A stretch of 64,000 nucleotides of DNA from a virus. The notes beneath the pieces are model-generated. The model searched no databases and was not told where the DNA came from. It saw only the letters and a program-made list of their open reading frames with translations. The translations under genes and the position numbers were made by a program. The DNA lies in the IMG/VR virus record IMGVR_UViG_3300036770_005287, positions 21,033 through 85,032 of that record; one strand, written 5' to 3'. Shown here one piece after another: positions 3,282 to 50,689 of the stretch (position 1 is the first letter of the stretch; each line of letters begins with the position of its first letter).

Positions 3282-4012
3282 TAGACCGCCTCAAAATTTC
3301 CGGCCACCGCATAAAACTCACCGCGGCAGCGGTATTCCCGGTATTGCAGCCCGCGAATATTCAAATCGCACTTGTAAAGCCCGGCTTCATGCACAAAGAA
3401 CCGTTTATCAAGCTGCCATTGCGTCCAATTGACACCATCCGCACTTTCGCGAACTTCAACTAAGACGCCTGAGCGCTCAGGCAGAGATACCTGCAGGTTT
3501 AGCAAAATGGCTGTCCTGCCATTGCCAGCGGCTTTCACAAAGTCACCCACGTTAACGCGGGCCGGTTCGCGCACTTCCACAACATCGCGCAGCGTGAGAT
3601 CAGGCCATACAGCAAATTCACGCGTTGCCAGCTTCAAAAATTTATTGCGCCAGGCTTCTGTGATAATGCCAACGGCAACCGCTGCATCAAGCGCCTGCTC
3701 ATGCTCAGGCAATCCCAGGTGAATAACGAAGCGATCACTATTGAGATACGACGGCTCAAATCCAGCTCTTAACTTTTGCAAAATCGCCTGCTGAGCCGCC
3801 AGCGGCAACGGCGAATCTTTTGGCACGAAGGTATCAAGCTGGTCGCGCAAGCCATCGCCCAAAATCTCGGTGATCTCAGGCACAACATCAGGCAATAACC
3901 GGTCAACCATCTTCACTTTTTGCGCCTTTAACAGCTCAAAGCAGCCATTTGAAGAAATACCGGCGTATTGCGGCTTTGCCAACTCATCGATAAGCGCTTG
4001 TGTGACGGCCAT
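3281..4012 (-). CDS. Hypothetical virion protein, 243 aa
   Basis: Starts MAVTQALIDELAKPQYAGIS and ends with a beta-rich, aromatic C-terminal half (VLVEVRESADGVNWTQW, YREYRCRGEFYAVAG) that reads like a beta-sandwich domain. The stop overlaps the start of the repeat protein (TAATG). The N-terminal half is helical. Its position between a small tail-accessory protein and the large repeat protein suggests a tail or fibre-attachment role, but no family is recognised. Confidence 0.6.
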   Translation of the reverse strand: MAVTQALIDELAKPQYAGISSNGCFELLKAQKVKMVDRLLPDVVPEITEILGDGLRDQLDTFVPKDSPLPLAAQQAILQKLRAGFEPSYLNSDRFVIHLGLPEHEQALDAAVAVGIITEAWRNKFLKLATREFAVWPDLTLRDVVEVREPARVNVGDFVKAAGNGRTAILLNLQVSLPERSGVLVEVRESADGVNWTQWQLDKRFFVHEAGLYKCDLNIRGLQYREYRCRGEFYAVAGNFEAV

Positions 4013-4058
4013 TACAAATCTCCAACGGTTAGAAAAGGGAAAAGGGCGTTATGCGCCC

Positions 4059-4400
4059 TTATGGAATCTGTAAGCCTGTGGTGGCAGCTGGACAGGTGTA
4101 AGTCGCGTCGTCTACAACAATTGTTGGCTGCAGTGACAGTGTGCTATAGCCCAAAAATGCCGCGTTATTCCAAAAGCCGATCGCTTTGGGCGCATGGCCT
4201 GGTCCCAGGTTAAACACTGCATCAGCGCTTAAAAGACGCTTACGCGCGGCCGCAGCAGCTAACGTCATCGGCAGGCGGCCATAATCGTGACCGGTCAATT
4301 CACTGGCACCGCCAGCAGGTGCCACAACGCTGTGTAGTGATACGTGTGTGACGGTCAGTGCATTTAACATCTGATGCACGGTTGAATCTTCAAGAGCCAT
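4059..4400 (-). CDS. Small tail fibre-associated protein, SLHT-type
   Basis: 113 residues with the arrangement of a common small phage tail protein family: an early THVSLHS segment, a GGASELTGHDYGR stretch, and a late beta-rich part containing GFWNNAAFLGY. Members of that family are 100-140 residues and sit in tail modules, near fibre genes. It has no signal peptide. The match is by pattern, not by search. A 46-bp gap separates it from the next gene, with a degenerate element at about 4021-4037 that resembles the dispersed AACGTT motif but carries an insertion. Confidence 0.55.
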   Translation of the reverse strand: MALEDSTVHQMLNALTVTHVSLHSVVAPAGGASELTGHDYGRLPMTLAAAAARKRLLSADAVFNLGPGHAPKAIGFWNNAAFLGYSTLSLQPTIVVDDATYTCPAATTGLQIP

Positions 4401-4414
4401 AGGTACCTCTGTAG

Positions 4415-5629
4415 TTATTGAATAATTGAATTGAACTGCTCAGCGGTCATCCCGACCTTGTTGGCCACCATGGCGCGGATCTCGCTATCGCTTTTCCCGG
4501 CGGCCGTGTGGATATCCTTGAAAACTTGATAAAGCTGCTTCGCCAGATCGCGGTTAAGCTGCGTAGCAACGTCGTACTTTTGTTGTGTTTGGGCTTTTGA
4601 GGCTTCAGCTGCTGCTGCCCGCTCTTCAGCGGCCTGCAGCTTTTTGCGGGCCTTGGTGGCTTGCTGGCGGGCTTTTTCAATGGCAGCCTTTGATGTCGCC
4701 AGTTTTTTCGATAGCGCTTCTTGCCGGCGCTGGTACCGGGCGAATTCAGCGATAGCCCTGGTCTGGTCAATGGGCGTTTTTGCCACCTTGTCCATTTTTT
4801 TGACGGCTTTGTCGTCCACGATGATTTTGCGACTGTCACCGAACCCAACCTTGTTGGCCTGGCGTTCCATGGCAGTGACAAAGAGTTTCTGAAACGCGGC
4901 TGTAGCGCTCTTATTGAGGACGTGCAGGACGTGTTTGCACGCCACGCCGGTCATTTGAGGATTTCGGATTTTCGCCGGGGAAAACTCTTTCGGCGGCGCC
5001 AGGCAATAGTTGCCGACAGTAGCCAGATACCGGTACCAGTACTGATGCCGGCCACAATCACAGGCAATTGAGATCCGGCCGTTTAAGGCCGCCTTGGCCG
5101 CCTTGGCATAGCCCTTATCCGGATGCGCATTCATCAGCGCATCGTCCCATTCTTCGAATCGCAGCTTTACCTGGTGCGCCTCGTACCCGTGCGCATCAGA
5201 TGCTTTGACGCGATATGTCACGACATTGCTTTGAATGGCGACAATGGCCGCCTGCCGGATCCCGGTACCGTCTGACACCTGGTTGTTTGCACGCTTGATA
5301 TCGATTTCGCGGCTGCCCGCAATGATTTGCGCCAGCGTGATCCCGGCCGTTTTCGAATCAAACTGCTTTTGAAATTGGCGCCGGCGCTTTTCGAGCGCCA
5401 ACAGATCAGCCCTGGTAAATGGCGTGCCGTCTTCTTTTTGACCGAGTTTGGCAAGATCTGCAGGGGATTTGCGGCGCAGCATGCCGGGCGTGATAGTGCG
5501 ATATGCTGATTTTCGCCGGTTGTTCTGGTCCTTGCGGATTTGCTCGAAGAGCTTCACAAAATCGCGCTGTGAAAGCCCCTCGACCTTATACCGGCCGTTG
5601 TCTAACTTCTCAAAGGCGGATGCCATCAC
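4415..5629 (-). CDS. SWIM zinc-finger structural protein with C-terminal coiled coil
   Basis: 404 residues. The middle (about 190-245) has the SWIM pattern CxC...CxH: CDC followed by an aromatic HQYWYRYLATVGNYC stretch and GVACKHVLHVLN. The last 130 residues are a lysine/alanine/glutamate coiled coil (SKKLATSKAAIEKARQQ onward). SWIM fingers bind zinc and usually nucleic acid or protein. In large phages such proteins occur among structural or scaffold genes. The start overlaps the upstream gene by 20 bp. The role may be DNA-contacting in the virion or in assembly; this is inference. Confidence 0.65.
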   Translation of the reverse strand: MMASAFEKLDNGRYKVEGLSQRDFVKLFEQIRKDQNNRRKSAYRTITPGMLRRKSPADLAKLGQKEDGTPFTRADLLALEKRRRQFQKQFDSKTAGITLAQIIAGSREIDIKRANNQVSDGTGIRQAAIVAIQSNVVTYRVKASDAHGYEAHQVKLRFEEWDDALMNAHPDKGYAKAAKAALNGRISIACDCGRHQYWYRYLATVGNYCLAPPKEFSPAKIRNPQMTGVACKHVLHVLNKSATAAFQKLFVTAMERQANKVGFGDSRKIIVDDKAVKKMDKVAKTPIDQTRAIAEFARYQRRQEALSKKLATSKAAIEKARQQATKARKKLQAAEERAAAAEASKAQTQQKYDVATQLNRDLAKQLYQVFKDIHTAAGKSDSEIRAMVANKVGMTAEQFNSIIQ

Positions 5630-11280: not shown

Positions 11281-11670
11281 GTGAACGAGTTCAAAAACAC
11301 CCAACAGGAATTATCTACAGTTTTAGGCGCCGAAGTTATTACCGGAGCATTAAGAGACAACCTAATAGGGTACTCTACGGATAGTGCGCTTCAGATGATA
11401 GAAGGGTTGAGACACCAAAGCCTGGAGGAAAACAACCTTCTTTTTGGTGCTTGCCACGTTTTGTTGGATTTGTTACCAGCTAAGTTGAGGGACTTAGACG
11501 GCATTGAACTTGCCATTGCAGACCTTATCGCTACACACACTGACTGTCTGAGGCAGCGTGTGTTATTGCTGCAATCAGAGCAGAACAACCTAGGGGGCGC
11601 ATCTGCTGATGTATCAAAGTTACAACGACATCAAACTTGCGAAGCAATCATGCGAACAGCTTGCTCTTGA
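11281..11670 (+). CDS. Hypothetical helical protein, 129 aa
   Basis: Starts at GTG 11281 with GAGG nine bases upstream. Helical throughout (EVITGALRDNLIGY; LPAKLRDLDGIELAIADLIATHT). It overlaps the next gene by 62 bp in another frame, suggesting coupled translation. It is in the forward path of a dispersed AACGTT element. No family is recognised. Confidence 0.55.
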   Translation: MNEFKNTQQELSTVLGAEVITGALRDNLIGYSTDSALQMIEGLRHQSLEENNLLFGACHVLLDLLPAKLRDLDGIELAIADLIATHTDCLRQRVLLLQSEQNNLGGASADVSKLQRHQTCEAIMRTACS

Positions 11671-12430
11671 GCTGCACGCTCGATTTTCAGACCATGTAAC
11701 ATATCGTGAAAAACTACCGGACGGCAGCTATCGCCGTCCTGTGATAGTCCTACGCAACCAAGCAGAGTTAGATGATGTCATAAAGGTTCGGGATGAAATC
11801 ACCCGGATCCGTGACCAGGTGCTCGAATCGACGGGCAGCTCTGTCCGCTTTACTGAGCCACGTATCGTTGAAAACGTTCTGCTGTATAAAGTGTGGGTCA
11901 ACACTGAGCGCAGCAGCAGTTATAACCAGACTTCACGGCTTGAGATTATCCATAACATTAAACAGCGATTAGAGCGGGCCAACCGCAACGCAGATAATGA
12001 CATTGCTCAAATGACAGCCTTGCTACTGCGTAAAGAACTGAAGTTTTTCGAAGGTGAAACAGAAGAGTACTACCGCGCACGGACAATTGGCTTGCCATCT
12101 TCTGATGCAGAGTGCCACCTGGCGAACCATGGCCGCGAGAAGATCAAAATATCTGAAGCCGGCTTATTTATCGTTGGTCCAAATTTTGACATACCCCGCG
12201 GCGACTTTCCTGAAGGACGAAAGCCACGCAAACCACGAGCAAGCGTCTATGACGGCCTTGAACAAATTCAGTACTCAGGTGCAGTCAGTAGCGTGCTGTA
12301 TCGGGAAAGCGAAGTAATTGCAGCCAAGCGCCGGGCCGGCTTTGATGACGAGAAGCAGGAGCAGATTAAGAACATGAAAAAATCTGTGTCTCGCCGCAGT
12401 CCTGGCGCGCCGCCAGAACACCCGATCTGA
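11609..12430 (+). CDS. Hypothetical protein, 273 aa
   Basis: ATG at 11609 with AGGGGG eleven bases upstream. The middle is a helical, Arg-rich stretch (SRLEIIHNIKQRLERANRNADNDIAQMTALLLRKELKFF); the C-terminus is basic and Pro-rich (KKSVSRRSPGAPPEHPI). It ends 10 bp from the stop of the SspA-like gene on the other strand, so the two units converge with no clear terminator between them. A nucleic acid-binding role is possible from charge only. Confidence 0.55.
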   Translation: MYQSYNDIKLAKQSCEQLALELHARFSDHVTYREKLPDGSYRRPVIVLRNQAELDDVIKVRDEITRIRDQVLESTGSSVRFTEPRIVENVLLYKVWVNTERSSSYNQTSRLEIIHNIKQRLERANRNADNDIAQMTALLLRKELKFFEGETEEYYRARTIGLPSSDAECHLANHGREKIKISEAGLFIVGPNFDIPRGDFPEGRKPRKPRASVYDGLEQIQYSGAVSSVLYRESEVIAAKRRAGFDDEKQEQIKNMKKSVSRRSPGAPPEHPI

Positions 12431-12440
12431 TATGACGGGC

Positions 12441-13028
12441 CTATAGCACGGCCCGCATTCTGGTTAATTCCAATAGCCGCCCCAGGTAATGCTGCAGCGG
12501 CTTTAAGTCTTTTGGCAAGCCAAAGCGCTGCACCGCCTGATAGATCAGCACACCGTAAAAGAAATCCATAGCCGACATTTCCGCACCCAACAAGAACCGT
12601 CCCGCATTGCAGGCCGGTGCCAATTCACGCAGCGCAGCAAATAGGTCTGTCCGCGCCCTTATTGCGTTTCTACCTTCACCGCAGGCGCATTGATAGGCCG
12701 GCAAGAAAAACTGCTGAAAGCGCAGCAGCGTGAGGCGTATGAGGGCACGCTGAGCAATGTCATGCGGCAGCAGCAGCGGTTCGGGATAGCGCTCAGCTAG
12801 GTAATCAACAATCACCATGGCATCATACAGCGTACAATGGTGCTGCACCGCCAGCACTGGCAGTATGCCGGCCGGATTGATGGATCTGAGCGATTCTGGC
12901 ACGTCCTGGACCGATACTTTCCGGATATGTAAGCCAAGCTCAGCTATCATCCAGCGAATTGCCTGGCTGTTGATGCTGTTATCGTCGTAGAGCGTAATAG
13001 CCCGGTCAATTTCGTTGTTTTTGAGCAT
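12441..13028 (-). CDS. SspA-like (stringent starvation protein A) GST-fold protein
   Basis: 195 residues with the SspA/GST layout: thioredoxin-like N-terminus (ITLYDDNSINSQAIRWMIAELG), the INPAGILPVLAV cis-proline turn, CTLYDAMVIVDYLAERYPEPLLLP, then an all-helical C-terminal half ending LLELTRMRAVL. Spacing matches SspA, whose exposed PHP surface patch after the ERF motif is here ERYPEP. Host SspA binds RNA polymerase and is needed with Lpa for P1 late transcription, so a phage copy beside the terminase could make late transcription host-independent or redirect it. Start ATG at 13028 has GAGGG upstream; it lies 2 bp after the terminase stop. A plain GST relative is the alternative. Confidence 0.75.
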   Translation of the reverse strand: MLKNNEIDRAITLYDDNSINSQAIRWMIAELGLHIRKVSVQDVPESLRSINPAGILPVLAVQHHCTLYDAMVIVDYLAERYPEPLLLPHDIAQRALIRLTLLRFQQFFLPAYQCACGEGRNAIRARTDLFAALRELAPACNAGRFLLGAEMSAMDFFYGVLIYQAVQRFGLPKDLKPLQHYLGRLLELTRMRAVL

Positions 13029-21770: not shown

Positions 21771-21970
21771 TATCCAGCTCCTAGCGCCAGTTCAGATGTT
21801 TCAGGCAGTACTTTGACGACCTTGTATTTGCTCTTGCCAATTTCCTTCTGAGCGTGCTCACCTTCGATAATGCGACACCCAAACGGGGCTGAGCGGGCAA
21901 TCAGCTTTTCGCCTTTTACCATGCCATCCCAGTCAGCCAACATGACAATCCGAACTCTTGTACTGCGCAT
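21770..21970 (-). CDS. Hypothetical protein, 66 aa
   Basis: The ATG at 21970 is preferred over an upstream in-frame ATG at 22000 because the latter lies in the terminator stem. The product is MRSTRVRIVMLADWDGM with basic and beta-rich segments. It overlaps the next gene by one base. Confidence 0.5.
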   Translation of the reverse strand: MRSTRVRIVMLADWDGMVKGEKLIARSAPFGCRIIEGEHAQKEIGKSKYKVVKVLPETSELALGAG

Positions 21971-21984
21971 AAATAAATCCCAAC

Positions 21985-22006
21985 AAAAAAGGCCCATCAA
22001 AGGGCC
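21985..22006 (-). terminator. Rho-independent terminator, minus strand
   Basis: GGCCC (22002-22006 complement) pairs with 21991-21995 around TTTGAT and is followed by T6. It ends the 22022 gene and separates it from the run below. Confidence 0.75.
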
Positions 22007-22021
22007 ACGTATGCCTAACCG

Positions 22022-22258
22022 TTAGAGCTTGATAACCCGATAGCCCCGCTCACTGCCATGCCAGTGGATCCGACGCATTTTGCTCACAACTGGCGCCTGA
22101 CCGCGCAGCGGTTCGTTTGCGTCAACAGCTGGCGCGCAATTACTGCAGCTGGCCTTTAACTGTCTCAGCGCCTCACTGAAGCCAGCGCCGGTTGTTCTGA
22201 ATGTGAATGATTTGCCCGCTTTGATAGCATCCGCTATCATGCCAACTGTATTGCTCAT
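22022..22258 (-). CDS. Hypothetical protein, 78 aa
   Basis: Starts MSNTVGMIADAIKAGKSFTFRTTG; contains a CSNC pair and ends RIHWHGSERGYRVIKL. No family is recognised. It is followed directly by a terminator. Confidence 0.5.
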   Translation of the reverse strand: MSNTVGMIADAIKAGKSFTFRTTGAGFSEALRQLKASCSNCAPAVDANEPLRGQAPVVSKMRRIHWHGSERGYRVIKL

Positions 22259-22302
22259 GTAAGCTCCTAAGTCTGCCCGACTTGTTTATTGTGACGATAC
22301 GC

Positions 22303-22333
22303 GCCCTACGGCAGTTACCAGCTGCTGTAGGGC
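22303..22333. repeat. Stable hairpin between two small genes
   Basis: GCCCTACGGCAG and CTGCTGTAGGGC form a 12-bp stem with one G-U pair. There is no T-run, so it may stabilise or process mRNA rather than end it. Confidence 0.55.
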
Positions 22334-22341
22334 AACACCTT

Positions 22342-22608
22342 TCAAATGCCGTTATCCGGCAATCTCTTGCGCTCCACGCTGTTTAAGCTACTCATTAATC
22401 GACTGAAATACGCTTTTCTGTATTCATCTAATTCGCCAGAATCACGCAGCTCATTGAACCGATTTACACTGTAAATCCCTTTAGATTCAATTAGTTCCTT
22501 GGTGAATTGCTCAACGTTTGGCTTAAAGGCCTGAAACCCTGCTTTCATCCAATCAGCGATAGCCAACACGACTTGTTTTTGCTCTTCACTCAGCGGTTGC
22601 TGTGCCAT
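22342..22608 (-). CDS. Hypothetical helical protein, 88 aa
   Basis: Starts at ATG 22608 with AGGA six bases upstream, supplied by the dispersed element. Fully helical (EEQKQVVLAIADWMKAGFQAF). One copy of the 17-bp palindrome falls inside its coding sequence. It is divergent to parA. Confidence 0.55.
   Translation of the reverse strand: MAQQPLSEEQKQVVLAIADWMKAGFQAFKPNVEQFTKELIESKGIYSVNRFNELRDSGELDEYRKAYFSRLMSSLNSVERKRLPDNGI
22461..22477. promoter_or_regulatory. 17-bp palindrome, copy 1 (inside a gene)
   Basis: GATTTACACTGTAAATC, a perfect dyad within the 22342-22608 coding sequence. The flanks are not symmetric here, unlike copies 2 and 4. Confidence 0.5.
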
Positions 22609-31572: not shown

Positions 31573-31994
31573 GCTGTACCGCCTGGCTGCTGTGCCAACT
31601 GCCGTGCGTATTTCAGGATCGCGGCCGGGTTTCGTATCAACCAACGCGGGCAGGTATTTTTCGGCCATCCATCCTCGCCGCTGTAGTCATCCCAGTCGGT
31701 AAAAGTATCGAAAACATACTCTTTCAACATGGTCCAGCAGCAGGCGTCAGACCATTCCGGTTCGTAATACCCGCTCATTGCTCCATAGCCAATCGTGCCA
31801 GGCAGCTGATTAAAGTATTGCGATACTTCACCACCCCGATAGCGCCAGCGGTATTTGCGATACACTTGCGGCGTCCTTTCTAAATCACCGTCAACAGGCC
31901 CAGAAACTACACGCTCTAAAGTTTGCGTCAAACCAAGCGCGATAACGATAGGCTCTGCCTTTTGTGTGAGTTTTTTCAGAATGCGCGGATTCAC
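31569..31994 (-). CDS. Hypothetical protein, 141 aa
   Basis: Aromatic-rich centre ([44 protein letters not shown]). No family is recognised. It overlaps rdgC by ATGA. Confidence 0.55.
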
Positions 31995-33142
31995 TTCAGC
32001 ACCTCACGATTGCCAAGATGGTTCGGAGTGCTGACAACACCTTTTGCTTCCATCGATTCAATCAGGCGCGCGGCACGGTTGTAGCCAATTCTGAATTGAC
32101 GCTGCACTGCAGACACTGACGCTTTGCGGGATAAAATGACGAAGGCCTCAGCCTCTGCATAAAACGGATCCGCCAGCTCTGACACCTCATCATCAGTACT
32201 GGCCGTATCACTTTCTGGCGCGGACACACTGACTTTTGAAACCGGCTCACCAACCAGGCTGATTAATGAAGCAATCACGTTTCTCATCTGGTCGATACAT
32301 AAGATCCAATCTGCATTTAAGCGCAGCTCTAAATCTTCCCAGCCCATTTCATCATTCGTATTGGCAATGATGTCATGCCACTTAATACCAGTCAGGACAC
32401 CGCAATCTTTAATCTTGAATTCGTACTGCTCAGGCACAGCCAGCACCAGCTCAGTAACTAACTTGTCCTCTAAATGGCTTTGCACTTCCTGAGCGCTCAG
32501 CAGCTGATTATCAAACGTTGCTTTGGCGCCTTCTTCGTCCGGGGCTTTGAGCTTTGCGGCGTGCCCGAGCACATAACCGGCCGGCAAATCTTTTTGAGCA
32601 AGCCACGACTGCATAAAGCTGCTAAGGCTATGAGAATTGCACCACGGCACCAGCGGCAAACTACCGATGGCTTTACGTAACATGGCTAATAGGTCCTCAG
32701 CGCGACTGGCTGAATTGGTATTGACGATCACATAGCCGGCTTTTAAATCGATAGCGGCAACGTACACGGTTGATTTTGAAAACGCGCGCGGCAATAACGT
32801 CTGGATCAGCTCTTCTTTGAGGCCCTGCTTTTCTTTGCGGCCAAGCGGCCGGCCTTTTTCCGCTTCGAGCGCATCAATTTTTGGCTGCAGCTCTTCAGCA
32901 AGGACCTGTGCCGGTAATAGTTTTTCCTGACGTTTGAGCGCCACCAGGTAAATATCATCCGTAACGGCATGGCAGTAGCTTTTAATTTTTGGATGCACCG
33001 GATAGGTAAAACCGAGCTTTAACGCGTCCTGTCCCATGCAAGGCGTAAACTTGTGCGCTGCAAGTAATACCTCTAATCCTGCTGCATCTACCTGCAACGG
33101 CTCTGTCATTTTGTAAATTCGCGCGTGCTTTAACAAAGGCAT
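31991..33142 (-). CDS. rdgC: RdgC-like recombination protein fused to an FtsK gamma domain
   Basis: 383 residues. Residues 1-300 follow RdgC ([97 protein letters not shown]). RdgC forms a dimeric ring on DNA and opposes RecA. Residues about 325-383 are an added winged helix matching the FtsK gamma domain: [42 protein letters not shown], which in FtsK reads KOPS DNA and activates XerD. A linker rich in Ser/Glu joins them. The fusion would give RdgC a sequence-specific anchor. It is the first gene of its unit, behind a 17-bp palindrome. Confidence 0.88.
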
Positions 33143-34819: not shown

Positions 34820-34855
34820 ATTCTGCAGCCGGTTATTAATCGTTATTAAGGTTAT

Positions 34856-34869
34856 TATCCTAACGTTGA
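34856..34869 (+). promoter_or_regulatory. Dispersed regulatory element, copy 8
   Basis: TATCCTAACGTTGA continuing ATAGG, between the divergent 34819 gene and the putative origin. It is oriented toward the GATC cluster and the HTH gene. Confidence 0.65.
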
Positions 34870-34920
34870 ATAGGCAATAATTTTAATTAATATTTTTGAC
34901 TGTAAATAAGAACAGTATTG

Positions 34921-35009
34921 GATCAGTAAAAAAGAATGGATCTGCAAAACGAGCGGATCTAAACTGCGATCCGTTTTGAAAATGATCTGTTTAGATCCGC
35001 GTTTGGATC
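34921..35009. other. GATC-rich inverted-repeat region, candidate replication origin
   Basis: Seven GATC sites in 89 bp, at 34921, 34939, 34956, 34968, 34984, 34994 and 35006. A 12-bp perfect inverted repeat, GCGGATCTAAAC (34953-34964) and GTTTAGATCCGC (34989-35000), is embedded. AT-rich DNA (34870-34918) lies to the left, and a replication-type HTH gene follows. Dam-site clustering is typical of P1 oriR and chromosomal origins. No DnaA box is seen here. Confidence 0.55.
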
Positions 35010-35083
35010 GTCTAAGATGGATTGGAAAGATTAACTAACTACAGGTTTTAGATGGGAAAATAATGAAGAGCACAAAATAAAAA

Positions 35084-35107
35084 AGGACTCCGCCAAGAGT
35101 CCTCTTT
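35084..35107 (+). terminator. Plus-strand terminator inside the leader region
   Basis: AGGACTC and GAGTCCT pair around CGCCAA and then TCTTTTA. No gene ends here, so it must stop a short plus-strand transcript coming from the 34856 element side, or attenuate the leader of the HTH gene. Confidence 0.7.
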
Positions 35108-35129
35108 TATGGGTCGAAACGCTGAACAC

Positions 35130-35257
35130 CTGAGCATCAGGGGAAGCAACTATCTCACACCTCAAATCCAAGGTGATGATAGTTCAAAAATGCTCAGCGG
35201 GTCAACTCGCGCTCAAAAAAAAACCAATAAAAAGAGCATTTTTACATGGAAACTATC
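35130..35257 (+). promoter_or_regulatory. Leader RNA with two mutually exclusive pairings over a start codon
   Basis: Segment B (GATAGTT 35178-35184, ATGCTCAG 35190-35197) pairs with segment A (CTGAGCAT 35130-35137, AACTATC 35148-35154), with an inner CACCT/AGGTG helix (35158-35162, 35171-35175). The same two words recur in the same order as segment C, GAGCAT at 35234-35239 and AACTATC at 35251-35257, flanking the ATG at 35246. B can therefore fold with A (start open) or C (start closed). Confidence 0.6.
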
Positions 35258-36097
35258 TTCACAATTCGGCATAGCGCCGCGTTGGTATCTGCTATTGAGC
35301 TTTTGATATCAACAAAAATGATAAAATCAGGGCCTGGCAGGACATTGCAGGCCATTGCGCTTTTCTGGAATCCGCAAGGACAAATCTACCCGAGTCAGCA
35401 AAAACTAGCGCTGATGACCGGCGTTGCACGCCGAACCATCATTACTCACATTCAGGCTTTAACTGACGCCGGGATAATCACGACATCTGCCCGCTTTAAG
35501 AAACACACTGACGGCACTGTTAGCTGCGCCAGTCTGAACTATGCCTTTGTGCAATCGAAGCTGGGAGAGCTGTTTGCCAAAGCCCGGCTTGCACTGAAAA
35601 AAGCCGCGGTTGCAGCAGCCAAGAGCCAGAAAAAAGATCACATAGCCCCCCTGGAAAATGATCACACTATCAGCTCTACCGAGCATGGTCCTTCGGACGT
35701 TAAGATCACTGTCCGCAGCGCACTGCTGGACTGGTTTAAATCTCAAATCTCAAAAGCTCTGCAAAGCGAAAGCAATCACCAGGGCGCTATTGCCAAAAAA
35801 GCAGCCTATAACGCAGCTACAGAACGCAACCGCATTGCAAGAGGGCAAGCATTCAGCCCTGAAGAGCAAAAACGCCGCAAAGCCATTGCAGACGCGGTAA
35901 GGCCTGAGCGTGAAAAAGCCGCCAGCACGGCAGAACGGATTATTGAGCTGTCAAAAGCCCTGCTAACCTGGACGCGCAGTAAAACCGGTTTTGACAAGGC
36001 GCAGCATGCCGAGCTGATGACACTCACGGCAAACGGCGCCTATCTGGATATCGCAACCAAGATTGCAGCTGGCAACTATTCAGCAGCTGCAAATTAG
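35246..36097 (+). CDS. Helix-turn-helix replication-type protein
   Basis: 283 residues. The N-terminal winged helix (QGQIYPSQQKLALMTGVARRTIITHIQALTDAGII) is of the HTH_36 kind found in phage O-like and plasmid replication proteins. The rest is helical and basic (residues 95-270). P1 RepL, the lytic replication protein, is of similar length, but I cannot confirm homology. The gene follows a GATC-rich repeat region and a structured leader that covers its start, both suggesting tight replication control. Confidence 0.7.
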   Translation: METIFTIRHSAALVSAIELLISTKMIKSGPGRTLQAIALFWNPQGQIYPSQQKLALMTGVARRTIITHIQALTDAGIITTSARFKKHTDGTVSCASLNYAFVQSKLGELFAKARLALKKAAVAAAKSQKKDHIAPLENDHTISSTEHGPSDVKITVRSALLDWFKSQISKALQSESNHQGAIAKKAAYNAATERNRIARGQAFSPEEQKRRKAIADAVRPEREKAASTAERIIELSKALLTWTRSKTGFDKAQHAELMTLTANGAYLDIATKIAAGNYSAAAN

Positions 36098-48675: not shown

Positions 48676-49017
48676 TTATTCCAGAATTGCAGCCACAATG
48701 GCCAGCACTTCGTTGACGATTTCTGCAGGGGCTTTTTCGACTTTCACCGCCTGCCGCGCTGTCAAATCAACAGAGCGAATGCCGTTGGCAAGTACAACAC
48801 CTTGGGTATCGGTGCCTGACCCCATCAGTGTCACAGCAAAGCCCTCAAAACGAGCATAGTTACCACCTTGTGTAATCGGGGCGATCACTGTAAGGCCAAG
48901 CTTGTTAAACTGCTTGGTAGACAGCACCAAACAAGGCCGCATATCGCCCTGAATCTCATTACCGGCAGTCGGGTTTAAACAGGCCCGTACAATGTCGCCA
49001 CGTTCAAATACAGCCAT
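48676..49017 (-). CDS. MazF/ChpB-family toxin (mRNA endonuclease)
   Basis: 113 residues: ERGDIVRACLNPTAGNEIQGDMRPCLVLSTKQFNKLG is the PemK/MazF core (RGDIV, P-x-x-GxE, RPxLVLS), followed by APITQGGNYARFEGFAVTL and LANGIRSVDLTARQA. The Arg and Thr positions for RNA cleavage are kept. It shares one base with the antitoxin gene upstream. Confidence 0.92.
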   Translation of the reverse strand: MAVFERGDIVRACLNPTAGNEIQGDMRPCLVLSTKQFNKLGLTVIAPITQGGNYARFEGFAVTLMGSGTDTQGVVLANGIRSVDLTARQAVKVEKAPAEIVNEVLAIVAAILE

Positions 49018-49271
49018 CAGACTTCAGCTCCAACAGCAGGCGCGGCATCCCAGTCTGCCAGTGCTTGTGGCATTGGCGCAGCCGGATCACACTTTGCCAG
49101 CAAGTCAGCCAGCTTGTATTTCTGGCGCTGGGAGTTTTGAGCAACAACCAATTGGCCATCAATGGCCTTTGCTTCCAACTTGTCGCCTAATTCAAAGCCA
49201 AGCTCTTTGAGCAGCTGAGCTGGTACAACAAGGCCTTTTGAGTTACCAATGCTGCGTAATACAGTTTCCAT
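49017..49271 (-). CDS. MazE/AbrB-family antitoxin
   Basis: 84 residues: METVLRSIGNSKGLVVPAQLLKELGFELGDKLEAKAIDGQLVV is the swapped-hairpin AbrB fold, with a flexible acidic C-terminus for toxin binding. It is preceded by repeated palindromes at 49287-49343 that fit autoregulation. Confidence 0.92.
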   Translation of the reverse strand: METVLRSIGNSKGLVVPAQLLKELGFELGDKLEAKAIDGQLVVAQNSQRQKYKLADLLAKCDPAAPMPQALADWDAAPAVGAEV

Positions 49272-50196: not shown

Positions 50197-50610
50197 TTAG
50201 GCTTGTGCGCTTTCCATTTCATTCAGTGCCGCCAGCTGCAAAAACCGAGAGCGATTCCCGTATGCCGGGTGCTCTTTCACAAACTGGTCAATTTTTAGTG
50301 TCAGCAGATCTGGCAGAGTGACATTCACTTTACTGGACTTGCCAAGAAATGGCGTTTCGTCAATCTCTACATGCGCCCAACTCCAACCTTTAAATTCCTC
50401 TTTTTTGAACAATTTACTTAAAGGCGTCGGCACGGGCGGCAGCGCCCCTTGCTCAGCTAAATCCGTCAGATGCAAACAAATCGCCTCTTTTACATTTGTC
50501 AGCGCTTCTTCTAAGGTGTCACCTGCCGAATAACAGCCCGGCAGATCCGGCACCGCGATACCATAAGATGTATGATCATCACCTGCCTCAATCGCCACTG
50601 TATATTGCAT
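50197..50610 (-). CDS. hicB: HicB-family antitoxin
   Basis: ATG at 50610 with GGAG eight bases upstream. 137 residues: MQYTVAIEAG...YGIAVPDLPGCYSAGDTLEEALTNVKEAI is the HicB fold, and SSKVNVTLPDLLTLKIDQFVKEHPAYGNRSRFLQLAALNEM is a C-terminal ribbon-helix-helix. It binds HicA and represses the operon. Confidence 0.92.
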   Translation of the reverse strand: MQYTVAIEAGDDHTSYGIAVPDLPGCYSAGDTLEEALTNVKEAICLHLTDLAEQGALPPVPTPLSKLFKKEEFKGWSWAHVEIDETPFLGKSSKVNVTLPDLLTLKIDQFVKEHPAYGNRSRFLQLAALNEMESAQA

Positions 50611-50689
50611 AGTCATTACTCCAATTCTGTCTCAAATCCCTCTAAAGCCGGATGCTATTGCCCGCCAGTAGAGCCAAAGAAGGGCGGGC

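Follow-up and report, generated by a model that had tools for sequence, protein, structure and literature searches.

Our results show that the leader of a replication gene (rep, 35246-36097 on the + strand) in this viral genome is a truly structured element; it most likely serves a phage-plasmid replicon as its antisense-RNA control region. The window, meaning the whole stretch of 64,000 nucleotides that was analysed, covers positions 21033-85032 of a record of 85,032 bases. On balance we lean towards reading the region as the copy-control region of a P1-like phage-plasmid replicon in which an antisense RNA refolds the rep leader. In the proposed mechanism, a constitutive antisense RNA of about 92 nt would be transcribed from the minus strand across the rep mRNA leader. 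When this RNA is absent, the leader would fold during transcription into a structure that leaves the ribosome site free (state A), and Rep would be made. The level of the antisense RNA would track genome copy number and, once bound to the first of two repeated segments (copy 1), the RNA would release a central segment (the centre), which would then pair with the second repeat (copy 2) across the Shine-Dalgarno sequence and the start codon and turn Rep translation off. Three parts of this mechanism are inferred: synthesis of the antisense RNA, refolding of the leader in response to it, and Rep as the limiting factor in replication.

The features on which this reading is built were computed or read directly from sequence: the repeats, the alternative folds of the leader, an origin-like neighbourhood, and sites resembling promoters and terminators that have counterparts in relatives. 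The words GAGCAT and AACTATC occur twice in the same order, at 35132-35137 and 35148-35154 (copy 1, 35132-35154, + strand) and again at 35234-35239 and 35251-35257, where they flank the ATG at 35246, and between the two copies lie the complementary words GATAGTT (35178-35184) and ATGCTC (35190-35195), all exactly as the first-pass annotation had described. The spaced pair GAGCAT..AACTATC is found on the + strand of the 64 kb at these two sites only, and the minus strand holds one match. The complementary words belong to the centre, GTGA.GATAGTTC.AAAAATGCTC (35172-35195, +), a partner for either copy, whereas copy 2 in full reads GAGCATTTTT..ATG..GAAACTATC..CAC (35234-35262, +) and includes both a Shine-Dalgarno-like GAG and the start codon. 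Pairing of the centre (35170-35200) with the start region at copy 2 reached -23.5 kcal/mol, where shuffles averaged -9.8, and pairing of the copy 1 region with the centre reached -25.0, where they averaged -14.0; none of 1000 shuffles attained either value. When the whole leader was shuffled by dinucleotides, pairing as good was obtained in 0 of 2000 cases for the centre and start and in 2 of 2000 for copy 1 and the centre, and the leader strand folded 4.6 standard deviations below its shuffles (4.9 for the complement). The repeats and their pairing are real and lie beyond chance.

Folding the leader from 35104 gave state A, in which hairpin I (AACTATC-TCA-CACCT / AGGTG-AT-GATAGTT, 35148-35184, +) is enclosed by a closing stem of CGCTGA (35120-35125) and TCAGCG (35194-35199) on the + strand, with copy 2 outside. 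State A was the minimum free energy (MFE) structure of the nascent leader until base 35245, and once 35260 was reached a hybrid fold of hairpin I and the Shine-Dalgarno helix took over. Masking the antisense-covered stretch (to 35169) switched the MFE of the leader from state A to a third structure, state B, in which the centre pairs with GAGCATTTTT..GAAACTATC..CAC and the ATG sits in an internal loop; mean pairing of the ribosome site, already about half paired in the free leader, rose from 0.54 to 0.80. Two competing folds had been proposed from the sequence, and two or more nearly isoenergetic ones were indeed found, but the proposal that the centre pairs with only one copy as a unit did not hold, as the hybrid splits the words between the copies (GATAGTT on copy 1, AAAAATGCTC on copy 2) with a stability equal to that of either pure state. 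States A, hybrid and B differ by 0 to about 4 kcal/mol, and their order and the sign of the differences vary with the transcript ends, so that the direction of the switch rests on the order of folding; a kinetic trap freed by antisense binding is plausible under this folding model, though the near-equal energies do not prove it.

A sigma-70-like promoter on the minus strand, TTGACC-18-TATCAT (35176-35205, 10/12 matches), predicts transcription from near 35169, and an intrinsic terminator with a 15-bp stem followed by TTTTTTA lies at 35077-35110 on the same strand. Together they delimit the predicted antisense RNA of about 92 nt (35078-35169, minus strand), whose start and expression we infer from these two sites. 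It would be complementary to copy 1 and to the 5' arm of hairpin I, and its 5' end coincides with the border between the copy 1 hairpin arm and the centre, with all of copy 1 covered and the centre left free. The terminator near 35084 had been taken in the first-pass annotation as a sign of a short RNA. Its stem is weaker in the + direction and stronger on the minus strand, and it is therefore likelier to be the end of the antisense RNA than an isolator on the sense strand. The rep mRNA itself may start near 35025, from a weak candidate promoter TTTAGA-17-TAAGAT (34990-35018, +, 8/12 matches), and the relative L012 has a weak TATGAT site at a similar position (-288).

Relatives were located only beside the portal genes of other P1-like elements, and direct searches of phages, plasmids, viral contigs and genome contigs with the Rep protein and the leader DNA returned nothing. 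The Rep homologs are 51% identical in L012, the nearest relative, and 41% in L017, with remote ones in L014 and in Aeromonas phage-plasmids (profile match at 95.6% probability over the N-terminal 90 residues for the Aeromonas group). Exactly one antisense promoter with at least 9/12 matches lies near the start in each of the window, L012 (TTGACC-17-TAATAT) and L017 (TTGACG-17-TACAAT), its -35 element beginning 41, 36 and 48 nt before the start codon, respectively. Promoter-like matches in the region occur at the background frequency of the scanner, about 2 per 2.4 kb, and at this background three position-matched antisense promoters are unlikely by chance, although they represent few independent lineages. 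L014 and the more remote Aeromonas members gave no sigma-70-like antisense promoter. An antisense-strand intrinsic terminator was present within 450 nt upstream of rep in all 7 family members, which do not count as seven independent events since several share ancestry, against 13 of 161 other upstream regions of the same contigs; sense-strand matches were found in 3 of the 7. The GGACTC/GAGTCC stem of the terminator is also present in L012 and L017. Transcription of an antisense RNA from the minus strand is, in our judgement, quite probable, and the chance that this RNA acts by refolding the ribosome site is slightly less than even.

Conservation between the window and L012 divides the leader into two parts. 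When its pairs were matched from the loop outwards, hairpin I had both partners replaced in 8 of its 12 pairs, with 4 unchanged and none broken, and a GCTG/CAGC pairing in the L012 fold is the counterpart of the state A closing stem. The block CAGCGGGTCAACTC, which contains the antisense -35 element, is unchanged between the two, and of 59 matches to the conserved block GCAGCGGGTCAACTC in viral contigs only those in L012 and L150 have rep downstream. Copy 2, in contrast to hairpin I, is conserved in neither L012 nor L017; pairing of the centre with the start was at chance level in L012 (-6.8 kcal/mol, with 788 of 1000 shuffles as good) and in L017 (-8.0), and masking the antisense stretch of L012 left the fold of its start region unaltered. 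Of the covariation expected in relatives, the paired changes are thus seen for the hairpin of copy 1 and the centre but not for the helix of the centre and the start, and the claim that one fold frees the start while the other buries it stands on folding of the window but not in L012. For the predicted start-burying switch, the sequence of the window itself gives good support and the relatives give none; the arm that buries the start may be peculiar to this genome, or the relatives may arrive at the same outcome by other means.

This same contrast, a conserved antisense module beside a centre:start helix that is not conserved, favours the idea that the antisense RNA is real and acts by another route, either by pairing in trans with copy 2 or through a duplex that leads to cleavage or decay of the rep mRNA, with the refolding in cis minor or accidental. 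Like the centre, the antisense RNA would carry GATAGTT and ATGCTC, and pairing of its nt 1-60 with the start region was computed at -24.5 kcal/mol, no weaker than the cis helix. However, the antisense RNA pairs perfectly along 92 nt with copy 1, and this duplex would dominate; the corresponding duplex of antisense RNA and start is weak in L012 (-11.0). We regard this other route as somewhat unlikely.

It is unlikely, in our view, that the hairpin of the centre and copy 2 simply keeps Rep low with no antisense RNA involved, while the terminator shields the rep unit from upstream transcription. The hybrid fold is the MFE at several transcript lengths and the terminator stem works in both directions, as such a static arrangement would have it, but it would account neither for copy 1 nor for the position-matched antisense promoters of three genomes nor for the antisense-strand bias of the terminators. 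A feature acting at the DNA level, in which the repeats would be bound by protein at an origin, as iterons or for autoregulation by Rep, and would pair as RNA only incidentally, is decidedly improbable. It could draw on the GATC cluster and AT-rich stretch nearby, on the four tandem repeats in the rep leader of L017 and on the similar distances between the words in copies 1 and 2 (10 and 11 nt); the words of the centre, however, are only 5 nt apart (gap CAAAA), which fits bulges in RNA and not one protein site, and the L012 hairpin was kept with a changed sequence, unlike a conserved protein site. Attenuation of the pT181 type, in which antisense binding would let the stem of the centre and copy 2 end transcription at UUUUU (35239-35243), is highly improbable, for although the 3' arm GAGCAUUUUU ends in five U, the U run lies within the stem, which has a loop of 38 nt and a G+C core of 5 bp, and no + strand terminator-like site occurs between 35104 and 35246.

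The preferred antisense model places a replication gene behind the leader, and the replication-type gene proposed earlier was borne out: rep encodes a 283-residue winged-helix protein of the O-like/RepL-like initiator kind, as judged from Pfam, PHROG and homologs, with matches to Pfam HTH_36 (2.2e-7) and to PHROG 391, 270 and 1032 (O-like, replication initiation). The structure model of Rep is weak (pLDDT 69.8, pTM 0.38); its fold search against PDB and BFVD yielded nothing under E 0.001, and the PDB ranking was headed by generic winged helices, where the DnaD N-domain scored E 0.08. The Rep_3 initiator (PF01051) is absent from the records of this genome, L012 and L014, and present in those of L017 and of the Aeromonas elements L008 and L004. 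Judged from a non-exhaustive scan of the other genes, rep may be the sole initiator of the genome or a second, RepL-like initiator.

The record is classed as linear, but its first and last 127 bases are identical, and with this terminal direct repeat the genome is probably circular and complete at 84,905 bp. The genome carries ParA, a gene in the ParB position and two integrase-like genes, and its portal protein is 39% identical to that of P1; by its gene content it is a distant P1-like phage-plasmid. Other genes of the window deserve mention in their own right. An RdgC-like protein (31991-33142, minus strand; Pfam 1e-74) is fused to an FtsK gamma domain (2.5e-24), an unusual pairing; in FtsK, this domain reads chromosome-orientation sequences. 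A glutathione-S-transferase-fold protein adjoining the terminase (12441-13028, minus strand) could be an SspA-like factor, and late transcription of P1 needs the SspA of the host. By eye, 48676-49271 and 50197-50616 (both minus strand) appear to hold a putative MazF/AbrB-type toxin-antitoxin pair and a HicB-like antitoxin.

Directly upstream of the leader lie the densest cluster of GATC sites and the lowest-GC stretch of the genome. The cluster (34919-35010) has 7 sites, at 34921-35009, and is the densest 130-nt GATC window, for which the Poisson expectation is about 4e-4 for the genome, and its arrangement resembles the Dam/SeqA type of origin. The AT-rich stretch at 34834-34913, a probable origin unwinding element, is the 80-nt window with the lowest GC content (21%) in the whole 85-kb genome. 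Origins regulated by Dam, among them oriC and P1 oriR, typically combine a GATC cluster with adjacent AT-rich DNA. L012 has its densest cluster in the same place (6 GATC at -342 to -272 from rep) and an AT-rich counterpart at -452, and in L008 and L159 the densest GATC cluster is likewise upstream of the rep-like gene. DnaA boxes occur in the window at the frequency expected by chance. From its sequence, the region upstream of the leader is probably origin-like, and this, like the lack of a Rep_3 initiator in the record, counts in favour of the copy-control reading.

By analogy, the closest working model for the leader is RNAI of pSK41, here in an unrelated replicon. In staphylococcal RepA_N plasmids, this antisense RNA of about 83 nt targets the leader of rep some 100 nt before the start, and the proposal is that its binding brings about a stem sequestering the ribosome site and does not end transcription (PMC5703833). 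The predicted antisense RNA described here is of about 92 nt, ends 76 nt upstream of the ATG and would likewise act on a start-burying stem, which folding predicts in the window but not in L012 or L017. The differences are that the initiator is a winged-helix O-like protein (Pfam HTH_36 and Crp/HTH_24 only) and not RepA_N, and that the host element is a P1-like phage-plasmid. pT181 and pIP501 use transcription attenuation with a pre-emptor (PMC5703833). There is a likeness in that a pre-emptor, here copy 1, competes with a start-proximal arm for a common partner and is removed by the antisense RNA, but the outcome here would be translational, the start-proximal stem having no terminator.

The REx-C module of Pseudomonas plasmids is portable and sits before unrelated initiators (RepA-PFP, RepJ), in the order antisense terminator (SaL1), stem-loops, antisense promoter inside the last stem-loop and rep (PMC5304414). 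The order of parts is identical in the window and L012, although the initiator is of another type. Homology to the SaL1-SaL3 block was rejected, with a local alignment score of 17 against a shuffle mean of 18, and Rfam gave no credible match at gathering or permissive thresholds.

With D6 RepL, Rep shares a match to the O-like initiators of PHROG 391, and D6 repL follows portal and pro, two genes past which rep is also found, in a matching part of the genome. The profile-profile match of Rep with RepL is weak (hhalign 28% probability over 58 columns), and rep, in contrast to P1 and D6, is in the opposite orientation to portal. P1 repL is driven, together with kilA, by the C1-repressed promoter P53 (PMC9948254), whereas here an antisense leader is predicted, and no kilA-like gene was seen next to rep. 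In each of these comparisons either the initiator type or the sequence fails, so the leader would work like known systems but is filed with none of them. No paper on antisense control of replication in P1-like phage-plasmids was found in the literature searched, subscription literature excepted.

P1 has separate plasmid and lytic replicons, controlled by iterons and by the C1 repressor. It is a doubtful speculation that a P1-like lineage swapped the iteron-controlled Rep_3 replicon for an O-like initiator at a GATC-rich origin, under an antisense-RNA translational switch. If true, one replicon would serve both plasmid maintenance, with the antisense RNA high, and lytic amplification, with the antisense RNA outrun, and the RNA would itself be an element of the lysis/lysogeny decision. 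If relatives of P1 do have an O-like replicon under antisense control, this would represent a third strategy for a phage-plasmid. Antisense RNAs of plasmids are known for rapid change of incompatibility specificity, and the divergence of the hairpin sequence between relatives fits such change. At about 180 bp, the region is a small target for testing countertranscript control of copy number and incompatibility in phage-plasmids.

The related elements also showed features of their own. Upstream of rep in L017 (about 11537-11680, minus strand), four tandem copies of a CATAAAACTTAACTTAGATAGAAACAGAC-like element lie within a predicted 317-nt antisense RNA, which places iteron-like repeats inside a countertranscript. 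The Aeromonas phage-plasmids L008 (16420-16520) and L004 (22455-22560, minus strand) share a short conserved reading frame (TWLHHRATV.SLTDHDPPLKCL) that reaches or overlaps the start codon of the rep-like gene and could encode a translationally coupled leader peptide. In L004, the A. salmonicida AS3 plasmid record, an unannotated winged-helix gene (21820-22455, minus strand) occupies the place of the helix-turn-helix gene of A. hydrophila. Finally, the related Moritella phage-plasmid pMR24a (L002) carries a diversity-generating retroelement, with avd and a reverse transcriptase, in its tail region (3494-5115).
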